This document shows, one piece after another, positions 5,234 through 52,461 of a DNA stretch of 64,000 nucleotides. The notes under the pieces were generated by a model. The model saw only the letters and a list, made by a program, of their open reading frames with translations. It was not told the origin of the DNA and made no database searches. Position numbers and translations under genes: made by a program. Each line of letters starts with the position of its first letter. The stretch's first letter is position 1. The stretch lies in the NCBI RefSeq assembly GCF_014190875.1, contig NZ_JACHVS010000005.1, positions 99,032 to 163,031 of the forward strand, given 5' to 3'. This DNA is from Paeniglutamicibacter cryotolerans. GTDB lineage: Bacteria > Actinomycetota > Actinomycetes > Actinomycetales > Micrococcaceae.

Positions 5234-6228
5234 GAGTCCAAGGACCCCCGTCCCGGACCGGCTTTCCGCGAAGGATCAAGGTCAAGCCCGGGAATTCCTC
5301 CGATCCCCCCAACGCCACCGGTGCTAACCTCCGGACTACTTCCCAGACCACTGTCAGGATAACGCGGGGCCGGCGTTTCGGGTCCTACCGACGAGCTCTC
5401 ATCCCTTTCGGGAGTGGAGGTGCGTTGAGTAGATGCTCCGCCGTGGGAATCATCCGCTGCGGCACCGGCCACCCCGCGAGCAAACCTGCCCACCAGAAGC
5501 CCAGCACCGGCAGCGATGGCCAAAAAGGCCCCTGGTCGTTGCCGAGCATAGCTCTTGACCTCTTCAAGGAGCGATCCGGGGTCACGATCCGTGAGCCATT
5601 CTGCAGCGTCACCTGTGCGATGGGCGGCCTGCCTCACCAGCGAAACCGCGGTTCCCTGATTACCGGAAGACTCGACCATGGCTTGGAGTTCGTTGCTGAT
5701 AAGGCGCAGGTTCTGAGCAATCTTCTCCTGCTGGATACCTGCCTGCTCGCGTAAATCGGTGCTGAGCTCATTCAAGAGGTCGGTGGCCTGGTGTTTTACT
5801 TCTTCGGTCACGTTCCCGGCTTGCTCCTGAGCCGTTCCCGCCACTTGCCGCGCTGCGTCAAGCCCCTGCCTGCCCAGCTCGCTGGCTTCAGCCTTGACGT
5901 CCGGCATTGTTCCCGAATCACCGGAGTCGGAGGAAAGGGCCGAAACGCCGGAGGTTGGTTGCGGTCGCACGTGAAGATCCTGAGGGTCCTCAGTGCCATG
6001 TCCCGGAATTGGCGAGACCCGCAGAAGGCCAGGAGGCTCAGCGACCTGTGAAACCGGTGGCAAGGCGGAAGGCGCAGCCACCTGAGAAACCGGCGGCAGG
6101 ACGGAAGGCTCAGCGACCTGTGAAACAGGACGTGCTTGGCCACTGCCGTCTGGGAGCGGGACCGTGGGGTCCAAGGGGTCAGGCTCGTGGCGGGCCTTTG
6201 GTGGATCAGGTGTAAATTCGTTGGTCAT
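5230..6228 (-). CDS. Proline-rich / coiled-coil membrane protein upstream of holin-like gene
   Basis: 332 residues, no family recognised. Residues about 25-75 contain three degenerate copies of a PVSQVAEPS unit. Residues 110-215 are Gln/Ala/Glu-rich and helical, recalling LEA-like and DUF3618-associated proteins (GRQGLDAARQVAGTAQEQAG). A membrane segment lies near 242-262 (PGAFLAIAAGAGLLVGRFA), and the tail is disordered and Gly/Ser-rich. First gene of the unit, with the start ATG at 6228. The context suggests envelope stress protection. Confidence 0.75.
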   Translation of the reverse strand: MTNEFTPDPPKARHEPDPLDPTVPLPDGSGQARPVSQVAEPSVLPPVSQVAAPSALPPVSQVAEPPGLLRVSPIPGHGTEDPQDLHVRPQPTSGVSALSSDSGDSGTMPDVKAEASELGRQGLDAARQVAGTAQEQAGNVTEEVKHQATDLLNELSTDLREQAGIQQEKIAQNLRLISNELQAMVESSGNQGTAVSLVRQAAHRTGDAAEWLTDRDPGSLLEEVKSYARQRPGAFLAIAAGAGLLVGRFARGVAGAAADDSHGGASTQRTSTPERDESSSVGPETPAPRYPDSGLGSSPEVSTGGVGGIGGIPGLDLDPSRKAGPGRGSLDS

Positions 6229-6852: not shown

Positions 6853-6890
6853 TAAACGGTAAACAATCGAATAAACGGTAAACAATCGAA
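6853..6890 (+). promoter_or_regulatory. Tandem 19-bp repeat in front of CsbD gene
   Basis: TAAACGGTAAACAATCGAA occurs twice back to back (6853-6871 and 6872-6890) and runs into the AAGGAG ribosome site of the CsbD gene. It may be a duplicated control element or a duplicated leader; which one is not known. Confidence 0.7.
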
Positions 6891-9310: not shown

Positions 9311-9946
9311 ATGCTGATCCCGGTGGAAGTGCTATTTGTTGTGGTCATGGGCTCAACTGCCGTGAGGCAATCTTGGAGTGCTGCCACCATTCCGGCGCTT
9401 CTGCTTGTTGCAGCGACGGTTCCCGTGCTGGTCGAGCCTGGAGCCACAAGCCGATTCCCAGCGTGGGTGCATGGATTTTACCTTTCGTTCCTGCTTGCCG
9501 GACCGTTCGCCGGGGCCCAACTAGGGTTCTATGGGCGTTGGGAGCGCTGGGAGCGCTGGGAGCGCTGGGACAAAGTTGTACACACATCCTCCGGGCTTTT
9601 GGTCGGATACGCCACGATATTCGCTCTGGGAGTCATCAGCAGACGGCAGAATATTGGTCTTCCACCGGTCCTGCTGGTGGGCGGCATCCTCGCCACCGGC
9701 GGTTTCATTGCCGCAATGTGGGAGATCGCTGAGTTCAGTAGCGAGCATCTTCTAGGCACCCGCGCCCAGAACGGCAATTTGGAAGACACCATGACGGACA
9801 TCATCTGCGGCATCGCCGGGGCCACCGCTGTAAGTATCGCGATGAGCCTGCACCTCAAAGGCCACCGCTTCCCCTTGATCGTCTCGCTTCTCCAAGAGCG
9901 TGATTTCAGATTCAAGCTTTCCCGAAACGGAGAGCTAGAACTTTGA
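9311..9946 (+). CDS. YjdF-like (DUF2238) integral membrane protein
   Basis: 211 residues, about five membrane segments. The motifs WDKVVHTSSGLLVG (about 85-98), WEIAEFSSEHLLG (about 137-149) and a following NLEDTMTDIICG resemble the DUF2238/YjdF family, in which conserved Asp, His and Glu face the membrane. An oddity is RWERWERWERWDK at about 75-87, from a 9-bp DNA unit repeated in tandem. The stop overlaps the TTG start of the next gene. Function unknown. Confidence 0.7.
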   Translation: MLIPVEVLFVVVMGSTAVRQSWSAATIPALLLVAATVPVLVEPGATSRFPAWVHGFYLSFLLAGPFAGAQLGFYGRWERWERWERWDKVVHTSSGLLVGYATIFALGVISRRQNIGLPPVLLVGGILATGGFIAAMWEIAEFSSEHLLGTRAQNGNLEDTMTDIICGIAGATAVSIAMSLHLKGHRFPLIVSLLQERDFRFKLSRNGELEL

Positions 9947-25062: not shown

Positions 25063-26589
25063 ATGACCCACCAATTAAACCGGCGTTCGTTCCTCGGGCT
25101 CTCGGTCGCCACGACCGCAGTGGCAGCCCTGGCCGCCTGCACACCCACACCGCCCGTGACCACCGGGACTGCCCGCATCCTGCCCACCGACCCGCTCGTC
25201 ACCGCCTACGAAACCCAGCGGGCGAGCACAGGAAAAACCGTCTCCCATGCCCTCACCGCGAGGTCTTTCTCCACCACCCTGGCGGGGAAGAACATCACCA
25301 CCTGGGGCTACGACGGCTCTCTCGTCGCGCCGACGCTTCGCGGCATGGCCGGAGACCAGCTCAACCTCACCATTGCCAACCAGCTTCCTGAATCCACCAG
25401 CATCCACTGGCACGGTCTCGCATTGCGCAACGATGCCGACGGGGTGCCGGGCCTCACCCAGGAAGGCGTAGGCACTGGCAAGGATTACCCCTACGATTTC
25501 AAGTTGCCGCATCCGGGCACGTATTGGTACCACTCGCATGTGGAGATGCAGCGCGAACGGGCCCTCTACGGGGCCCTGGTCATTGATGACCCCCAGGAAC
25601 CTTTGAAGTATGACAAGGAGTGGGTGATTGTCCTGGATGACTGGCTCGACGGCATCACAGGTACCCCGGACGAGGTCTTGAAGGAACTCTCCGAGGGTAT
25701 GGGCGGCATGGGGGGCATGAATCACGGCAGGGGCGACGGTGGCATGGTGATGGGACACATGCTCATGGGTGCCACCAGCGACTTTCTGGGCGTGGACGCC
25801 GGCGACGTCGCCTACCCATTCCATCTCTTCAATGGCCGGGAACCCGGGAACCCGGAGATCTTCACGGCAAAAAAGGGTGAACGGATCCGGCTGCGCATCA
25901 TCAACGCGGCAGGTGACACTGCCTACCGGATCGGGGTCCCGAACCAGAAGCTCACCGTGACCCATACCGACGGCTTCCCGGTCCAGCACATCGAGGTCGA
26001 TGCCGTGGTTCTAGGCATGGGGGAACGCATCGACGCGCTTTTGACCGTCCGTGACGGCCACACCCCGGTGGTGGCCCTGGCCGAGGGGAAAGCCCAAATG
26101 GCCTACGGGCTACTCTCCACCGGGACCGGGACCCCACCGGCCAGGGGCAGCCTCCCAAAGACGTTGACGGGCAAGGTCGTGGACGGCGGCCAGCTCACCG
26201 CCGACCCGGCCGTGAGCCTGGCGACCAAGACACCTGACCGGGTCCACGAGCTTCGTTTGACCGGCGGGATGGCGAATTACGACTGGGGCATCAACGGCCA
26301 TCGCTTCGACATGGCCAAACCATTTGAAAACGCCTTTGATATCAAGGCCGGTGAGCGAGTGGAAATGAAGTTCGTGAATGACACCGAAATGTGGCACCCG
26401 ATGCACATCCACGGCCACACATTCCAGGTCGGGGACACCGGGGCCCGCAAGGACACCATCATCGTCCGCCCCAAGGAAACCATCATCGTCCGGTTCGACG
26501 CCGACAATCCGGGCCAGTGGCTCTTCCACTGCCACAACGCCTACCATGCCGAACGCGGCATGATGGGCGTCTTCTCCTACGTCAAATAG
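25063..26589 (+). CDS. Multicopper oxidase, Tat-exported lipoprotein
   Basis: 508 residues from ATG 25063 (AAGGA upstream). Twin-arginine signal NRRSFLGLSVATTAVAALAAC ends in a lipobox Cys. All copper-site motifs are present: HWHG (about 115), HSH in WYHSHVEM (about 157), HPMHIHGH (about 445) and HCHNAYHAERGMM (about 489). A Met-rich GMGGMGGMNHG loop at about 214-224 recalls CueO-type cuprous oxidases. Likely oxidises Cu(I) outside the cell and works with CopB and DUF305. Confidence 0.93.
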   Translation: MTHQLNRRSFLGLSVATTAVAALAACTPTPPVTTGTARILPTDPLVTAYETQRASTGKTVSHALTARSFSTTLAGKNITTWGYDGSLVAPTLRGMAGDQLNLTIANQLPESTSIHWHGLALRNDADGVPGLTQEGVGTGKDYPYDFKLPHPGTYWYHSHVEMQRERALYGALVIDDPQEPLKYDKEWVIVLDDWLDGITGTPDEVLKELSEGMGGMGGMNHGRGDGGMVMGHMLMGATSDFLGVDAGDVAYPFHLFNGREPGNPEIFTAKKGERIRLRIINAAGDTAYRIGVPNQKLTVTHTDGFPVQHIEVDAVVLGMGERIDALLTVRDGHTPVVALAEGKAQMAYGLLSTGTGTPPARGSLPKTLTGKVVDGGQLTADPAVSLATKTPDRVHELRLTGGMANYDWGINGHRFDMAKPFENAFDIKAGERVEMKFVNDTEMWHPMHIHGHTFQVGDTGARKDTIIVRPKETIIVRFDADNPGQWLFHCHNAYHAERGMMGVFSYVK

Positions 26590-30748: not shown

Positions 30749-33700
30749 ATGCCAGGAACCGTTCCGCCGGACCATCACCACGCCGACGCGGGCGTGGTGC
30801 CGCCCCGGCCCCAGCGACGAAGCCCCTGGAACACGGCCCTGGTCGGGCTGGCCGGGCTGAGCCTGATCGCCTCCCTGAACACCGCCATCGCCCCGGCCGC
30901 ATTCGCCGCCCCACCGGTAGGCGGCCCGGCCCCAACGGACCTGCTCGGTCAACGCCCCGGCGCCACCGCCCTGCCGATCCCGGTCAGCGACACCGTGCAG
31001 GCCTCGGTGGATGTCGGCACCGGCAACCTCCTGCTCACCCTCCGGGGCCTGGCCCTGCGCGGGGTCAACCAGGACACCACGGTGGGCCTGAGCTTCAACT
31101 CCCTGGCCACACCTCCGGCCGCTGGGCCCTCGGTGGTCACCCCGCCGCGCTGGAACCTGGCCATCGCCGGCACCGGGGTTCTCTCCACCGACGGGCCACG
31201 CATCAACTTCCACGGCGCCGACGGATCGGTCTCCGTGTTCACCCCGCTCACCGGATCCACCACCACCTTCACCGCCCCTCCCGGGGTCAAGGCCGACCTG
31301 GTGAAAACCGCCACCGGCTACACCCTGACCTCCCGCACCACAGCCCAGGTGGTTACCTTCGATGCCGACGGCAAACCCACCCAGAGCGCCGACCGCAACA
31401 ACAACGCCACCACCCTGGCCTACAGTTCCTGGAAACCGACCACCGTCACCGCCACCCGCGGTGCCACCGAGGCCCGGACCGCCACCCTGACCTACGACTC
31501 CGCCGGGATCCTGACCGGCTTCAGACAGGCCAGCGGATCATCCGCCCGCCAGGTCATCCTGGCCACCGACGGCGCCGGGGACCTGACCCAGGTCACCGAC
31601 GCGGCGGGCAAGAACACCACCTTCACCTACACCGATCACCGCATCACCTCGGTGAGCTCCCCGACCGGGGCCACCACGAAGTTCAGCTACGACGCCTCCG
31701 GACGGGTCACCTCGATCACGGCCGTGAACACCGCCCCGGGCGTCGGGAACTCAATCACCCGCTTGGCCTACCCGGACACCACCCAGAGTCTGGTCGCCGG
31801 ACCCAACACCGACCAGGGCGCTGCCATCACCACCGTCCCGCGCACCACCTACACCCTGACCTCCACCAAGAGAGTGTCCCAGGCGGTGGATGCCCTGGGT
31901 CGTGAACGCGCCACGACCTATACCGGGGACTTCGACACCCTCACCGCCACCCGTGGCACCGGGCCGGGGGCCGGAACCACCACCAACGCCTACGGCGCGA
32001 ACTCGGGCCAGTCCCTGACCTCCTCCCAATCCCCCGGCGGGGCCACCAGTGCCCTGGACTACGCCAACACGGCGGCCAGCACCGCCTACCTGCCCACCTC
32101 GGGCACCGACGATGCCGGGAACACCTCCCTGTTCACCTACAGCGGGAGCGGGAACCCGTTGAGTTCCCAGGACGCGCTGGCCGCCACGGCCACCCTGACG
32201 TACAACACCGACGGGACTCCTGCCACCGCGCTGGCCCCGGGCAACGGAACCAACAAGAGCCTCTACACCTACGACAGTCTCAAGCAGTTGACGAAGTTCA
32301 CCCCGGTCACCGGTTCCTCCCTGGGGGTGCGGACCTTCACCTATGACCTGTGGGGGCGCACGGCCACCGCGACCAACGGTGCCGGGACCACCGCGACCTA
32401 TACCTACGACGCCCTGGACCGCGTCCGATCCATCACGCATTCGGGCGGGACGGCGAACACCACCTACACCTACAACAACAACGGGCAGCTCGCCACCCGG
32501 ACCGACCCGCAGGGAACCACCACCTACGGGTACGACCAGCTGGGCCGGCTGACCTCGCGGGCGAACACGGCCGGCGGAGGGACCATCGCCTACGGCTATG
32601 ACAAGGCCTCAAACCTGACCTCCACCACCGATACCCGGGGCACGACAACGTACGCGTTCGACGCCTCCGGTGTCCCGTCTTCGATGACGTACCAGTACCA
32701 GGGCACGCCCCGGGTGTTGGCGTTCGGCGTTGATGACCGGGGCCGGCGCACGGACACCTGGATGGATACCAACCCCGAGCACACAATCTGGGCAGCTCAT
32801 ACCCGCACCCGTTACGACACCACCGGCCGGGTCACCGGTGTCCTGGCCGAAGAACAATCGGCTACCGCCGGCCTGACCACGGTGGTGGACCTCACCTACT
32901 GCTACGCCGCCGGGTCCACCGCCCCGACCTGCCCAAGCAACGCCTCGACGGACCGATCCAAGATCCAGTGGACCAAAGACAACAAGTCCGGGGCCGTCAC
33001 CGCCTATACCTACGACCGGGCCGGCCGGCTGACCAAGGCGGCGATCACCGGCGGATCCTCGCCGGCGACGTACACCTACACCTATGATTCCCGGGGGAAC
33101 AGGCTGACCGCCACCACCACCGGCAGTATCAGCGGCAGCCAGTCGTTCACGGTGAACGCGGCGAACCAGATCACCACCGCCGGGTACGGCTACGACGGGG
33201 CCGGGAACCTCACCGCCGACCCGAACGGGACCTACGCCTATAACGCAGCGCAGCAGATGACGACCGTCACTAAGGGCGGGGCAACGTATCACTACACCTA
33301 CGCCGGTGGATCGCAGAACGAACTGCTCTCCCAGACCACGCCCACGGGAACCTACCAGCTCACCTACGGACGCACCGACGCCCAGGGGATGCCGGTCATC
33401 GAGCAGTTGAAGAAGGACAACCTCACCGCCTACCTCGAACACGACCCGGTCACCGGGGAACCGTTGATGCTGCGCACCGCATCCGGGAAACAGGCCCTCT
33501 ACGTCCACGACGGGACCGGCAGCCCCGTGGCCCTGATCACCAACGAACCCTACGTCGCATTCGCCTACGCCTACGACCCCTACGGCACACCCGTGCTGAC
33601 CCAGGTCTCCGGCGGCAACGCCGTCGCCCAAAACCCGTACGCGTTCAAGGACGGCACCCAGGACCGCACCACCGGCTGGGTCAAATACGGGGCCCGCTGG

Positions 33701-47501: not shown

Positions 47502-48500
47502 GTGAGCACTCCCCCGGCCCCACTGCAGCAGTTTCAGGACATCTTCCCTGCCGCCTTCCAGACGTTACCGGCACCAGAGCTGCCCGACCGAGCCAACCTC
47601 AAAACGGTGCGAGCTGCCATCGCCGGCGCCTTGGCCCAGACACCTGCACAAGAGGTGGCGGAAGAGTGCGAACGATTCGGCCTCGCGCCACCCCAAGATG
47701 GTGAGGATCCCTGGAAGGGCAAGATCCGATACATCGAGAAAAAGCTCCGGGAATTCTCCCTGCAGCAGCTCGTCGCCCTGGGCCACCGGGTCAACGAGGA
47801 GCATCCTTCAACGGAACTCGAACATGTGCTTTCCCTTGCCGGCGTCGGCGGGGTGGCTGGCGACCTAAAGAACCTCATTTTTGCCGCAAACGGTCCGAAG
47901 CCCAAGATTGTCCTGCTCGATGCGGTGAACAACGACATCCAGATCACCAAAAACGCCGAACACTGTCTGGTCTACAACAGGTCACTACCGGCCGATGGAC
48001 TGAGCTGGCGGGCACTGGTGTCCTGGTGGGCCGACACAGAAACCATCCCCGCCGAGACCGAACGCGAAACGGCCGGGACGCTCTACCGCCGTCTCATGGC
48101 ATCGATGGAGGGCAACGGCGCCGAGCAATTCCTTTTCCAGCAATACTGCAGTCTGTACGGTGCCCACGGGTTTGACCTTCCGGCTCTGATCCCGCAGGTG
48201 TACCTGCATTACGATCCCTACACCAAACGCCACGGCGGTACGCTTCCTCGGCAACGGATGGATTTTCTCTTGCTGCTGCCGAACCGAAGGCGGGTCGTGC
48301 TCGAGCTGGACGGGGTCCAGCATTACGCTGACCCGGACGGGCGGGCCAAACCGAGGTTGTACGCCGAGATGGTGGCCGAGGACCGCCGACTCAGGCTCAC
48401 CGGCTACGAGGTCTACCGCTTCGGCGGGTTCGAATTCGTGAACCGGGACCAGGCGGGGACCATGTTGAACGGCTTCTTCCGAGAGCTCCTCCAGTTGTGA
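47502..48500 (+). CDS. Putative defence nuclease (AbiJ-like N-terminus plus PD-(D/E)XK-like C-terminus)
   Basis: 332 residues from GTG 47502. The middle segment DLKNLIFAANGPKPKIVLLD, then AVNNDIQITKNAEHCLVY, recalls the AbiJ-NTD3 type domain of abortive-infection proteins (moderate certainty). The C-terminus has a nuclease-like arrangement: QRMDFLLLLPNRRRVVLELD, then GVQHY, then YEVYRFGGFEF. This is R-x-D, E-x-DG-x-QH and a final RF, as in DUF559/Vsr-like endonucleases. Only 7 bases separate it from the RES gene, so all three genes likely form one operon. Confidence 0.6.
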   Translation: MSTPPAPLQQFQDIFPAAFQTLPAPELPDRANLKTVRAAIAGALAQTPAQEVAEECERFGLAPPQDGEDPWKGKIRYIEKKLREFSLQQLVALGHRVNEEHPSTELEHVLSLAGVGGVAGDLKNLIFAANGPKPKIVLLDAVNNDIQITKNAEHCLVYNRSLPADGLSWRALVSWWADTETIPAETERETAGTLYRRLMASMEGNGAEQFLFQQYCSLYGAHGFDLPALIPQVYLHYDPYTKRHGGTLPRQRMDFLLLLPNRRRVVLELDGVQHYADPDGRAKPRLYAEMVAEDRRLRLTGYEVYRFGGFEFVNRDQAGTMLNGFFRELLQL

Positions 48501-48918
48501 ATCGCGAGCTTGGAACTCCCGGCACCACATCCAACGATGCTCACGTGCCGGCCCGCACGTGGCACCTGTAGAACGCAGATAATGGCGGTTCCGTCGTTTT
48601 CCCTCAACATGAACCTATCCAGGTAGCTTCAAAGACCCCCAGCTAAACCGACAGTCAACCCAAATTACGACACTAACCTGATGGTTCTGCGTTGGTCTCC
48701 TGACGTCAGGATGATGTATACCCCAAACTGGCACGTGTGACCTGGCGCGCTATTTCACGCCATTGCTACCCATGCCCCACCCCCAGGCGGAAGCTCTAGC
48801 GGGCGGCCGAGGAACACCCGAGGAGGCAAGGGGTGAGCTCTTGGAGAGCGTCAACTCCGATTCCTGCCCTGGTGCGCGCAACTGGTGAGCGATGCAAACT
48901 TTGACACGAACGGCATGA
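48501..48918. other. No gene seen
   Basis: About 400 bases downstream of the nuclease gene. No frame with features. May hold the promoter of the hairpin array that follows. Confidence 0.5.
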
Positions 48919-48958
48919 GGCGGGCTAGTGATGGATATAGCTCCATCTCTAGCCCGCC
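48919..48958. repeat. Leading hairpin of the array
   Basis: 17-bp stem with a single mismatch (48919-48935 with 48942-48958), loop TATAGC. Starts GGCGGGCTAG. Lies 26 bases before the first repeat hairpin. Confidence 0.75.
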
Positions 48959-48983
48959 CCATAGGGTGTTGCTTTACTGCTGT

Positions 48984-49506
48984 GGCCGTCTCAAGCTGTC
49001 CTACGGCCCGGTACTGCAGGTACTACCGGTGTTGCTGGTACTGCTGTGGTCGTCTCAAGCTGTCCGACGACCACGCCCTCCGGGTACTGCTTTACTGATT
49101 TACTGCTGGTACTGCCGGTTTTGCTGCGGCCGTCTCAAGCTGTCCGACGGCCGGATACTGCTGGTACTGCTTTACTGCTGGTACTGCTTGATTGCCGGGG
49201 TAACTGGTTCTGCTGTACTGCTGCGGTCGTCTCAAACTGTCCGACGACCACGCCCTCCGGCTACTGCTTTACTGCTGGTGTTGCTGGTACTGCTTGATTG
49301 CCGGGGTAACTGGTTCTGCTGTACTGCTGCGGCCGCCTCAAGCTGTCCGACGACCACGCCCTCCGGCTACTGCTTTACTGCTGGTGTTGCTGGTACTGCT
49401 GTACTGCTGCGGTCGTCTCAAGCTGTCCGACGACCACGCCCTCCGGCTACTGCTTTACTGCTGGTACTTCTTTACTGCGGTGGCCGTCTCAAGCTGTCCG
49501 ACGGCC
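48984..49506 (+). repeat. Array of seven related hairpins with compensatory stem changes
   Basis: Seven copies of a hairpin with stem GGYCGTC/GACGRCC and 11-base loop TCAAGCTGTCC. They start at 48984, 49046, 49127, 49225, 49331, 49411 and 49482. Where the left arm has GGCCGTC the right has GACGGCC (copies 3 and 7; copy 1 pairs 6 bp). Where it has GGTCGTC the right has GACGACC (copies 2, 4, 6). Copy 5 alone has two C-A mismatches. Copy 4 has one loop change (TCAAACTGTCC). Spacers of 30-80 bases are themselves built from TACTGCTTTACTGCTG-type units. Frames crossing it give low-complexity Cys/Tyr/Leu peptides, so it is not a protein gene. Possible structured RNA or a DNA-level element. Confidence 0.8.
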
Positions 49507-49515
49507 GGGTACTGC

Positions 49516-49590
49516 CATGCGGGGTTCCCCCGAAAGGAAGCAACTGCAGCTTCCTCAATCTGGGGGTAATTCGCTCTCCTCCCCCGCATG
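49516..49590. ncRNA. Nested stem structure closing the hairpin array (candidate)
   Basis: Three helices nest inside one another: CATGCGGGG/CCCCGCATG (49516-49524 with 49582-49590), CCCCC/GGGGG (49527-49531 with 49562-49566) and AGGAAGC/GCTTCCT (49535-49541 with 49549-49555). The arrangement is typical of a folded RNA. It begins 9 bases after the last array hairpin. RNA status is inferred from structure only. Confidence 0.4.
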
Positions 49591-49624
49591 CCAAAAAATA
49601 TAGTACTGCTTCCAGAGAAAATCA

Positions 49625-49648
49625 AATCCCCAAGTTTCCGGGGTTTTT
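49625..49648 (+). terminator. Terminator-like hairpin after the array
   Basis: AAATCCCC-AAGTTTCC-GGGGTTTTT: a short GC stem followed by five T. It would end a plus-strand transcript through the array. Confidence 0.45.
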
Positions 49649-50385
49649 GGAGGGGTTGGGCACCAAACCAAGCGAGGTCGCTGGCTTACGGCATGGTCCC
49701 CTCGGGATGCCCGGGGGTGACCTGGCCGTAGCGGACTCACCGGCGGGCAGATCCTGCCGGCCGGCCGGCGGTGGACCCACCGGGACGAGGAGCTGTCGAT
49801 CGCGGTCATCGGGTTGCCACAAGCAAAGGCGCTACCTCAGGGGACAACCAATGAGTAGTCGAAGTCTTCGCAGCCGATGCTTGCGGTCAGTTCCGTGGTG
49901 CGGTTCTGGTCCTGGCAACGCAGCAAAATCGCTCATCGCGGCACGGAAGCCCCCGCAGAACCGCCTGGTGCGGCCGAGGGCACACCTCTGGCGCGTGATT
50001 CACACGGATCCTTGCCGGTTCCGCTGAAGAAACGGGTGTTCTCGGGTGCTCGGGCTTTGACCTGCAAGTTCCTGCCCGTGGGGTCACCGACACCCTTGTG
50101 GTCCAGGACCTTGATGCAGTCCGCTGAAAAGGTTGGTTCGGCGCGGGACCGGACCCCTGAGCTTGTTGGTCCGGAATGAGGCTTGGTTCCCCCTGGACGC
50201 CTGGGGTTGCCACGGGCTGTATTCAGCCACGGAAGCACTGGGCAGGGATGGATTTGACAGGGCCCGGCACTCGTTATTAGCCTATTGCTACTTGCATCCG
50301 TTGATGGATTTGACCGGCCAAGAGGGGAGGGACACGTCGCCGTTAAGCTAAACCTAAACCGAGACAAACCACCCCATTCATCGAG

Positions 50386-50408
50386 GGCCCCTCTGGCATA
50401 GAGGGGCC
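50386..50408 (+). terminator. Terminator-like hairpin
   Basis: GGCCCCTC-TGGCATA-GAGGGGCC followed by TTCTGTTT. Classic stem and T-rich tail; no gene recognised upstream. Confidence 0.55.
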
Positions 50409-50520
50409 TTCTGTTTACCCGGAACGAGTCCCTCGTCCGCCCTCGAGGTGCGGGCATCTTGCCGCCTCTGCCCGGGCCGGGGAAAACAGCGAAGACGTTT
50501 ATCCCCCCAAGCGGTGAAAA

Positions 50521-50981: not shown

Positions 50982-52461
50982 ATGACGGTACCCATGTCCG
51001 TACAAGAAAATATCAGAACTATGGATTCCCAGGGAATCTCGGGCCGGGAGATCGCCCGACGGTTGGGAGTCAGCCGGGACGCGGTCTCCAAGTACGCCAA
51101 CCAACAGGATTTCTCCCCGGCCCCGGCGGCCCCCACCGCCCGGCCGGGCGCCTCGGTGCTCACCGGGTTCGAGCACCACATCGGGCAGTGGCTCACCGAT
51201 GATGATCGCCGACCGCGCAAGCAGCGGCATACGGCCAAACGGGTCTTTGACCGGCTCGTGGAGGAACACGGTTTCACCGGCGCGTATTCGGCGGTGCAGC
51301 GGTACGCGAAGAAATGGAAGGCCGCCCACCGGAAGCCCGGGGAGGGCTTCACCGAGCTTCTCTGGCCCGCCGGCACCGTGCAGGTCGACTTCGGGCAGGC
51401 CGAAGCCATCATTGCCGGGGTCCGGCAGGTGCTGCACATCTTCTTGGTGACCTTCCCGTTCTCGAACATGCGCTTCGTACAGGCCTACCGCGGCGAGACC
51501 GCCGAATGCGTCGCCCACGGGCTGCGCACCGTGTTCGAGCACATCAACGCGGCGCCACGGCACCTGGTGTTCGACAACGCCACGGGCATCGGTCGGAGGG
51601 TCGGAACCAAGGTCGTCGAGTCGAAGCTCTTTGGTGCGTTCAAGCTCCACTACCGGTCCGAATCACGCTATTGCAACGCGTATTCGGGGCATGAGAAGGG
51701 CAACGAAAGAAAACGCGGTCGGGTTCCTGCGCCGCAACTTCATGGTCCCGCTGCCAGAAGCTGCCTCCCTGGCCAGGCTCAATGAGGTGTTGATGGCCAA
51801 ATGCGACTCGTTGGCCGCCACCGTGCACTACCGCAAGGGCCTGCCCCTGGGCGAGCTGTTTGCCCAGGACGTGGCCGCGTCCCTTCAGCTGCCGGGGATC
51901 GGTTTCGAAGCGGTGCGCTACGAATCGCGCAGGGCCGACAAGACCGGGAACCTGCTCATTGATGGGAACACCTACGCAGCCGGGCCAATGTTCAATGGGC
52001 GGATGCTCACCGTGGGGCTGGGCCATGAGGTGGTGCAGATCCTGGACGAGCACTCGGCACCGGTGCGCACCTTCGAGCGTGTCTTCGGGACGCAGGCCGA
52101 GACGATCTTCGACCCGGCGTCCCCTCTCCCGTTGCTGGTGACCAAACCCGGTGCGTGGTCCCATTCCCCGTTGCGGACCCTGGTCAGCGACCCGGTGCGC
52201 GACTGGCTGGATGCGGCCACCGCCACCAACCGGCGCCGGTTGTTCAGCGCGGTGGACGCCGCGTCCGGGACCACCGGGTTCGATACCGCGATCCAGGCCG
52301 CCGACACCCTGATCCAGCGCGGGGACGAACCGGACATGGCCATGCTGGGCATGCTGGCCCGCCGCCTGGCCGACGGCACCGAACCACCGGCGGCCAACGT
52401 GGATCTGAGCGTCTATGACACCTTCACCATCCTGAACACCAGCACGGGAGAAGTCGCATGA
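50982..52461 (+). pseudogene. istA: IS21 IstA with frameshift
   Basis: The N-terminal HTH (REIARRLGVSRDAVSKYANQ) and integrase motifs VQVDFGQAEAI and LVFDNATGIGRR are in the first frame. The frame shifts near 51700 (after SGHEKGN), and the rest (ENAVGFLRRNFMVPLPEAAS to the end) is in another frame. One or two bases would restore ~490 residues. Its end overlaps istB by 4 bases. Confidence 0.88.

Follow-up and report, generated by a model that had tools for sequence, protein, structure and literature searches.

A mobile hairpin-array element of Micrococcaceae that appears to be a minus-strand structured RNA gene

In the sponge RNAs CsrB, CsrC, RsmY and RsmZ, a single RNA with its own promoter and terminator carries many hairpins that repeat one loop motif. 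The type III toxin-antitoxin RNAs (ToxI) are arrays of structured repeats that end in a terminator hairpin, and they are found on plasmids. REP/BIME sequences, with their RAYT transposase, are intergenic palindromes arranged in clusters, and CRISPR arrays and CRISPR-mimic RNAs consist of repeats and intervening sequence transcribed as one RNA. We analysed a hairpin array within a 64,000-nucleotide stretch of Paeniglutamicibacter cryotolerans DNA (contig NZ_JACHVS010000005.1; the whole stretch is here called the window) that has likenesses to these systems and departs from each of them.

The element appears to represent a clearly bounded family of structured RNAs not described before. Four relatives were compared with Rfam 15 and no family reached the gathering score; searches by E-value with the window region and with two relatives yielded only matches far below threshold, the best at 18 bits. 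We found no description of the element in titles and the beginnings of abstracts, nor in the available parts of PMC2864571, PMC12306157, PMC6305408 and PMC8632094; a large candidate-RNA survey might contain one.

Architecture of the element

A sequence-only reading of the window had reported seven hairpins with a common loop and one variant copy. This was borne out: between 48991 and 49499 the plus strand contains TCAAGCTGTCC seven times, one of them with TCAAACTGTCC. Allowing up to one mismatch, 7 of the 10 loop matches in the whole window fell inside the array (1.07 expected from shuffles). The unit is larger than first described, however. The whole feature runs from 49625 to 48915 on the minus strand and has the form of a compact, apparently non-coding RNA gene, in the order promoter, 5' stem domain, seven hairpins with U-poor linkers, and a GC-rich closing hairpin, H0.

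The promoter (49597–49625, minus strand) is of the sigma-70 type, with a −35 box TTGATT at 49620–49625, a 17-nt spacer and a −10 box TATATT at 49597–49602. Judging from the position of the −10 box, the RNA is predicted to start near 49590. A terminator-like hairpin lies immediately upstream of the promoter (window 49628–49643, minus strand). The 5' domain (49514–49592, minus strand) was delimited with alignments A4 (33 rows, one of 34 sequences, L101, being left out) and A6 (8 rows), an inverted repeat (I5) and the fold. Its parts are an outer stem, GCAUGCGGGG/CCCCGCAUGG, an inner C5/G5 stem and an apical GGAAGC/GCUUCC hairpin; a consensus fold over both subfamilies retained only 3 pairs.

In RNA order, the seven hairpins of type A, all on the minus strand and with the minus-strand loop GGACAGCUUGA, occupy 49480–49508 (plus-strand copy 7), 49409–49437, 49329–49357, 49223–49251, 49126–49154, 49046–49074 and 48982–49010. 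The fourth has the loop variant GGACAGUUUGA, where a chromosomal copy of the element has GGACAGCUUGA. Spacing between hairpins is irregular (64, 80, 97, 106, 80 and 71), and no value is a multiple of three. It had been claimed that both arms change together in six of the seven copies. The array itself is real, but perfect Watson-Crick pairing of the inner 7 bp holds in only 5 of 7. Copy 1, the last hairpin in RNA order, is imperfect as reported, lacking the loop-closing pair, but so is copy 5, the third in RNA order (GGCCGCC/GACGACC), whose inner seven pairs include two C-A mismatches on the plus strand that become U-G wobbles on the minus strand.

The linker stretch (49011–49479, minus strand, with hairpins 2 to 6 inside it) is made of repeats of the AGCAGUA, CAGCAACAC and CAGUAACAC types. 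Over 35 element rows, two of them near-identical copies from the own genome, the linkers comprised 7300 letters (A 0.35, C 0.28, G 0.23, U 0.11, remainder N), with any hairpins missed by the pattern counted as linker; AGCAGTA was the commonest linker 7-mer, with 211 occurrences. By pattern, the same 35 rows, some of them cut by contig ends, held 2 to 16 hairpins per element, the low counts reflecting contig ends or missed loop variants. The closing hairpin H0 (48915–48962, minus strand) coincides with inverted repeat I1 and covaries in 25 sequences. We propose it as a terminator without a U-tract; it was not among the calls of a terminator scan of 48500–50500. Away from the array, short tandem repeats occur in the window at 6034–6126, 6853–6890, 9535–9570 and 26443–26492.

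The earlier statement that no protein gene fits the array was upheld. The spacings are not multiples of three, and plus-strand frames start and end differently between copies, which led us to reject a protein-coding repeat; one such frame, of 380 aa, runs across the array in the window. No minus-strand ORF of at least 60 aa overlaps the seven hairpins, and mechanically called minus-strand ORFs reach H0 and the promoter and 5' domain.

Strand, pairing and loop conservation

The sequence-only reading had proposed a plus-strand RNA from 48.9 to 49.65 kb. A promoter scan of 48500–50500 returned a single promoter-like site, on the minus strand at 49625–49597 (0.3 expected). The same TTGA..-17-TATATT layout was found in 34 distinct sequences, which had been selected by a promoter pattern, so that the shared layout is partly a matter of choice. 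We built two models from non-overlapping source sequences: R1 for the hairpin, and R2, using sequence only, for the promoter and 5' domain. Eight arrays (L140 to L147) matched R1 by their hairpins alone, and all eight had TTGAC.-N17-TATATT and the 5' domain; having given no row to R1, these arrays are a fairer promoter test than the 34 sequences. The promoter hexamers were constant across two subfamilies, and the spacer sequence differed. Promoter matches were missing from L020 and L072, in which the 5' part is replaced and transposase-like sequence adjoins (PF01527 in L020), from L055, which keeps the layout with one changed base in the −10 box (TATTTT), and from the contig-end cases L058, L061, L068 and L091.

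Stem mismatches were then read for strand. On the minus-strand reading, G-U cells outnumbered A-C cells by 39 to 15 for the A hairpins and by 18 to 7 for H0, or only by 8 to 7 and 10 to 4, respectively, when counted by distinct position-type. Folding was stable on both strands (z −6.48 for minus and −5.06 for plus, 20 shuffles each; energy was low in a relative too) and thus did not decide the strand. We placed the gene on the minus strand because the lone promoter lies there and is conserved in homologues, and because the stem mismatches favor that strand. The plus-strand RNA is accordingly rejected, as 48500–50500 holds no plus-strand promoter-like site and the mismatches point the other way. 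The case shows that a palindromic array read without regard to strand can lead one astray: the gene lies opposite to the strand first proposed. We consider a minus-strand RNA gene, taken by itself, very probable.

Covariation within the window amounts to two stem types, and homologues were therefore required to test it. In 52 distinct rows of A hairpins, 92.3% of cells were paired, covariation was 0.268 versus 0.183 in shuffled alignments, and cells changed on both sides numbered 31 versus 16.2. Two of the five measures were not above the shuffles (both-sided pairs, 4 versus 3.7; pair types, 13 versus 11.7). H0 showed the strongest covariation of the element's stems: 93.7% of cells were paired in 25 sequences, pairs with both-sided change numbered 7 versus 4.2 (7 of 500 shuffles as high), and both-sided cells (31 versus 8.1) and further pair types (19 versus 13.6) were each matched by 0 of 500 shuffles. 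This H0 set comprised 24 distinct sequences found by pattern plus that of the window, 8 of them with ends shifted by 1–2 bases; at the remaining loci H0 escaped the pattern or was truncated at a contig end. Hairpins of a second type, B, gave no covariation in 16 rows; of the 9 pairs modelled for them, 3 were mostly or always unpaired.

The suggestion of selection on pairing thus held up in homologues for the A hairpins and H0. The uncompensated stem decay expected of a plain minisatellite was looked for in the same homologues and was not seen in either of them; the B hairpins, with no covariation, do not share in this result. Copy number does vary and the repeats do expand in register, as a minisatellite or an inert, functionless repeat would have it. 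That explanation was already disfavored, and the fixed flanking domains, the compensated stems and the near-fixed loop in relatives make it scarcely credible. A structured non-coding RNA gene is expected to show compensatory stem changes, which were present in the A hairpins and H0, as well as a promoter in conserved position and an end hairpin, both present, the latter without a U-tract.

The A hairpins (alignment A2) and B hairpins (A3) were gathered with loop patterns, so that loop conservation in these alignments is partly by choice; a pattern-free search upheld the A loop. With a stem of at least 6 pairs and a loop of 8–12 nt as criteria, under which most B stems are too short, the search found 145 hairpins in 34 elements. 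A GCTTGA or GTTTGA loop was present in 130, exactly GGACAGCTTGA in 96; the rest were 6 close loop variants, 1 B-like hairpin and 8 unrelated ones. A2 omits 2 of the 54 distinct A hairpins (L082:1461–1489 and L083:2352–2380), and AGCT is present in 48 of its 52 loops; kissing contacts through it, or between A and B loops, are conceivable. B hairpins, with the loop AAGCAGUAGGA, occur in many relatives, and the pattern found none in the window's own subfamily. The motif AGCAGUA recurs in the linkers and in many B loops. Because hairpin number varies while the loop is near-fixed and the stems are compensated, the selected feature would be a loop on a stem, shown several times.

The same observations could be read differently. 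If the repeated loops, together with AGCAGUA in linkers and B loops, paired with target RNAs, the element would be a multi-seed antisense RNA, and a loop that stays near-fixed while stems vary, along with a motif repeated in linkers and many B loops, would suit such a regulator. Searches for complements in the own genome and in rRNA argue otherwise. Beyond the arrays, the own genome contains a single exact complement of the loop, which lies within a long ORF. A stretch of rRNA operon gave no excess of complementarity: loop A matched 8 nt, a length reached by 33 of 200 shuffles, and the values for the other five motifs were reached by 89 to 197 of 200. We regard base-pairing regulation as unlikely, if still worth bearing in mind.

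Distribution, mobility and neighboring genes

The own genome holds a second copy on contig C1 (1966660–1968873, minus strand) in a segment 98% identical to that of the window. Three substitutions and an 8-nt gap in a linker separate the two copies within the RNA gene. At one end the duplicated segment extends to at least 50900 in the window; this second full copy matches only from 48695 on. The start of an IS21 transposase ORF, outside the RNA gene (50982–51785, plus strand; NF033546, E 2.6e-57), adjoins both the window and the chromosomal copies. A third, diverged array lies on the window's own contig, C5, at 33148–33373 (L020 4400–6400), where the promoter and 5' domain are missing beside a transposase ORF (PF01527) and the GC-rich closing hairpin is retained.

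Within the genus, 6 of 15 genomes contained the exact hairpin pattern, as did 15 of the 295 in the family sample. The pattern occurred in 41 stretches of the genome contig collection, 30 of them from Arthrobacter, Paeniglutamicibacter, Paenarthrobacter or other Micrococcaceae and 11 being single matches in other taxa. R1 found clusters in 17 of the 295 Micrococcaceae genomes, plus 13 single weak matches, and R2 matched in exactly those 17. This agreement is partly by construction, because most loci supplied model rows; what it adds is that every full locus detected by R2 in the 295 family genomes had an array. Among 396 genomes of the order, R1 clusters were confined to the own genome (G000) and G116, both Micrococcaceae, with isolated weak matches in 12 others. 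The R1 and R2 searches used filters able to lose weak matches. Several genomes carry two or three copies, three being the maximum in the sample; the flanks of copies diverge, and the distribution is patchy. Several carriers have cold-linked names or sources (alpinus, antarcticus, psychrophenolicus, psychrochitiniphilus, a meltwater pond), for which sampling bias is possible.

The ParA-like, relaxase (PF03432) and TraG/D-type (PF12696, PF02534) proteins encoded on contig C5 mark it as most likely a conjugative plasmid. Among annotated plasmids, those of Arthrobacter alpinus (strain A3) and Arthrobacter sp. TMP15 have a related array immediately behind umuDC, and a third umuC-linked array was found in A. 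psychrochitiniphilus GP3. The umuDC genes (Y-family polymerase) are convergent to the RNA gene at L018, L019 and L087/L145, with 7 bp from the umuC stop to H0. Since H0 begins 7 bp past the convergent umuC in L018 and L019, and likewise by sequence in L087, it may serve as a shared terminator. DNA upstream of the promoter is common to 8 Arthrobacter copies, with indels. One of these upstream stretches is 60–80% identical to a hypothetical gene present in 20 plasmid records, and in the three records examined this gene stands directly behind mobC and a relaxase gene. The plasmid-gene match and the indels among the eight led us to read the upstream DNA as a gene relic, and a second RNA there was rejected. 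Copies were located on plasmids, next to umuDC or next to a degraded plasmid gene, and plasmids and their relics seem to be the vehicles on which the RNA gene moves. A plasmid backbone feature was rejected, the element being present in only 2 of 72,556 plasmid records, as was a phage origin: blastn gave no match to phages, and two exact patterns gave no viral-contig match.

Mobility raises the question of whether the element acts as DNA, its hairpins being extruded as protein sites for transposition, as a transfer origin or in a REP-like role. Its scattered occurrence, its presence in several copies in one genome, nearby IS sequences, plasmid carriage and resolvase genes near some arrays would all fit. 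The promoter stands in register with the array, however, the mismatch types favor a minus-strand RNA, and Y1 transposase (PF01797) was found in few carriers (2 of 17) and not in the own genome. We judge a DNA-level role improbable, and a minus-strand RNA gene remains our preferred reading.

The array had been placed just downstream of a RES toxin/nuclease operon. No RES match was found in Pfam, NCBIfam or PADLOC, and a link to such an operon was not sustained, since neighbors differ between copies and other DNA occupies that flank of the own genome's second full copy. A nuclease-like ORF in the window (47502–48500) gave sub-threshold matches only, to AbiJ_NTD3 and DUF559. At the Arthrobacter sp. 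ISL-72 array (L082), a stretch resembles this ORF (72% over 190 bases). We surveyed crude ORFs within 6 kb of 27 arrays, some on short contigs. A conserved protein partner was rejected: once frames arising by chance in the arrays themselves were set aside, no ORF family extended beyond 6 of the 27 arrays, and the nearest ORFs differ. Serine-resolvase-like ORFs lay within 6 kb of 6 of the 27 arrays (L083, L096, L097, L142 and others), and the two tested both match PF00239. An Hsp20 gene lies 435–723 bp upstream of the promoter at L095, L106 and L145, in differing orientations, the L095 copy matching PF00011. Because no protein gene stands consistently alongside the element, a partner acting in trans is likely.

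Proposed function and comparison with known systems

The gene boundaries, strand, pairing, patchy spread and plasmid links are supported by the sequence comparisons above. Beyond these, we infer that the element is transcribed and that H0 terminates the RNA. RNA polymerase would start at TTGATT-N17-TATATT (near 49590) and make a minus-strand RNA some 670 nt long. The first part made would be a stable 5' stem domain, followed by seven hairpins with a near-fixed 11-nt loop, spaced by mostly single-stranded, U-poor linkers, and transcription would stop at or just past H0. The RNA would then act as a sponge by multivalent titration, binding many copies of one loop-recognising partner, protein or RNA, for the carrier element. 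The sponge role is argued from architecture: a molecule of this make would show one motif many times. Given a minus-strand RNA gene, we consider this role somewhat favored; for the gene and the sponge role taken jointly, we would give an even chance. A broader proposal, that the element founds a new class of mobile-element multivalent decoy RNAs, in which a modular array of variable copy number, carried by Micrococcaceae plasmids, titrates a host RNA-binding factor and the A and B loops are two display motifs, is tentative.

One specific partner can be weighed, namely CsrA, in a sponge of the CsrB/RsmZ kind. CsrA (PF02599) was found in 11 of 17 carriers, the own genome among them, versus 96 of the 295 family genomes sampled (Fisher p 0.006), although outside the own genus the association weakened (p 0.09). 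GGA was present in 35 of 52 A loops and in 16 of 16 aligned B loops, the latter chosen by a pattern favoring such loops. Yet 6 of the 17 carriers gave no CsrA match, 5 of these being at least 90% complete, and G274, one of the carriers with no CsrA match, carries GGA in each of its five A loops (L089). In the A hairpins GGA sits at the loop edge, and 17 of 52 loops lack it. In view of the carriers with no match and the loops without GGA, a CsrA sponge is possible yet not favored, and we hold it to be quite improbable.

If the sponge reading is true, mobile DNA would carry a purpose-built loop-display RNA. The clear boundaries, multiple copies and named carriers make transcription and partner capture directly testable.

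Compared with the large ornate RNAs OLE, GOLLD and ROOL (see PMC12286853 and PMC12265935), the element is likewise a long structured RNA whose role is unknown or newly emerging, but it is a modular array of one hairpin and has no fixed, elaborate fold. The array has no gaps of cassette size between its hairpins, such as an integron attC array would show. The view that the array is unlike CRISPR and REP/BIME layouts was confirmed: its spacing of 64–106, repetitive linkers and variable stems set it apart from CRISPR by layout, and its own promoter, its 5' domain and an array held in register inside a larger unit distinguish it from REP/BIME. The element resembles ToxI in its structured repeat array, closing hairpin and plasmid carriage, but at the umuDC loci the next gene past that hairpin runs convergently; ToxN matched in 0 of 17 carrier genomes, and control genomes likewise gave none. 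With CsrB, CsrC, RsmY and RsmZ it shares the plan of one RNA with repeated loop hairpins, its own predicted promoter and an end hairpin. It differs from them in its GAYAGYUUGA-like motif, in having GGA in only some of its loops, in its long U-poor linkers and in its carriage on mobile DNA.
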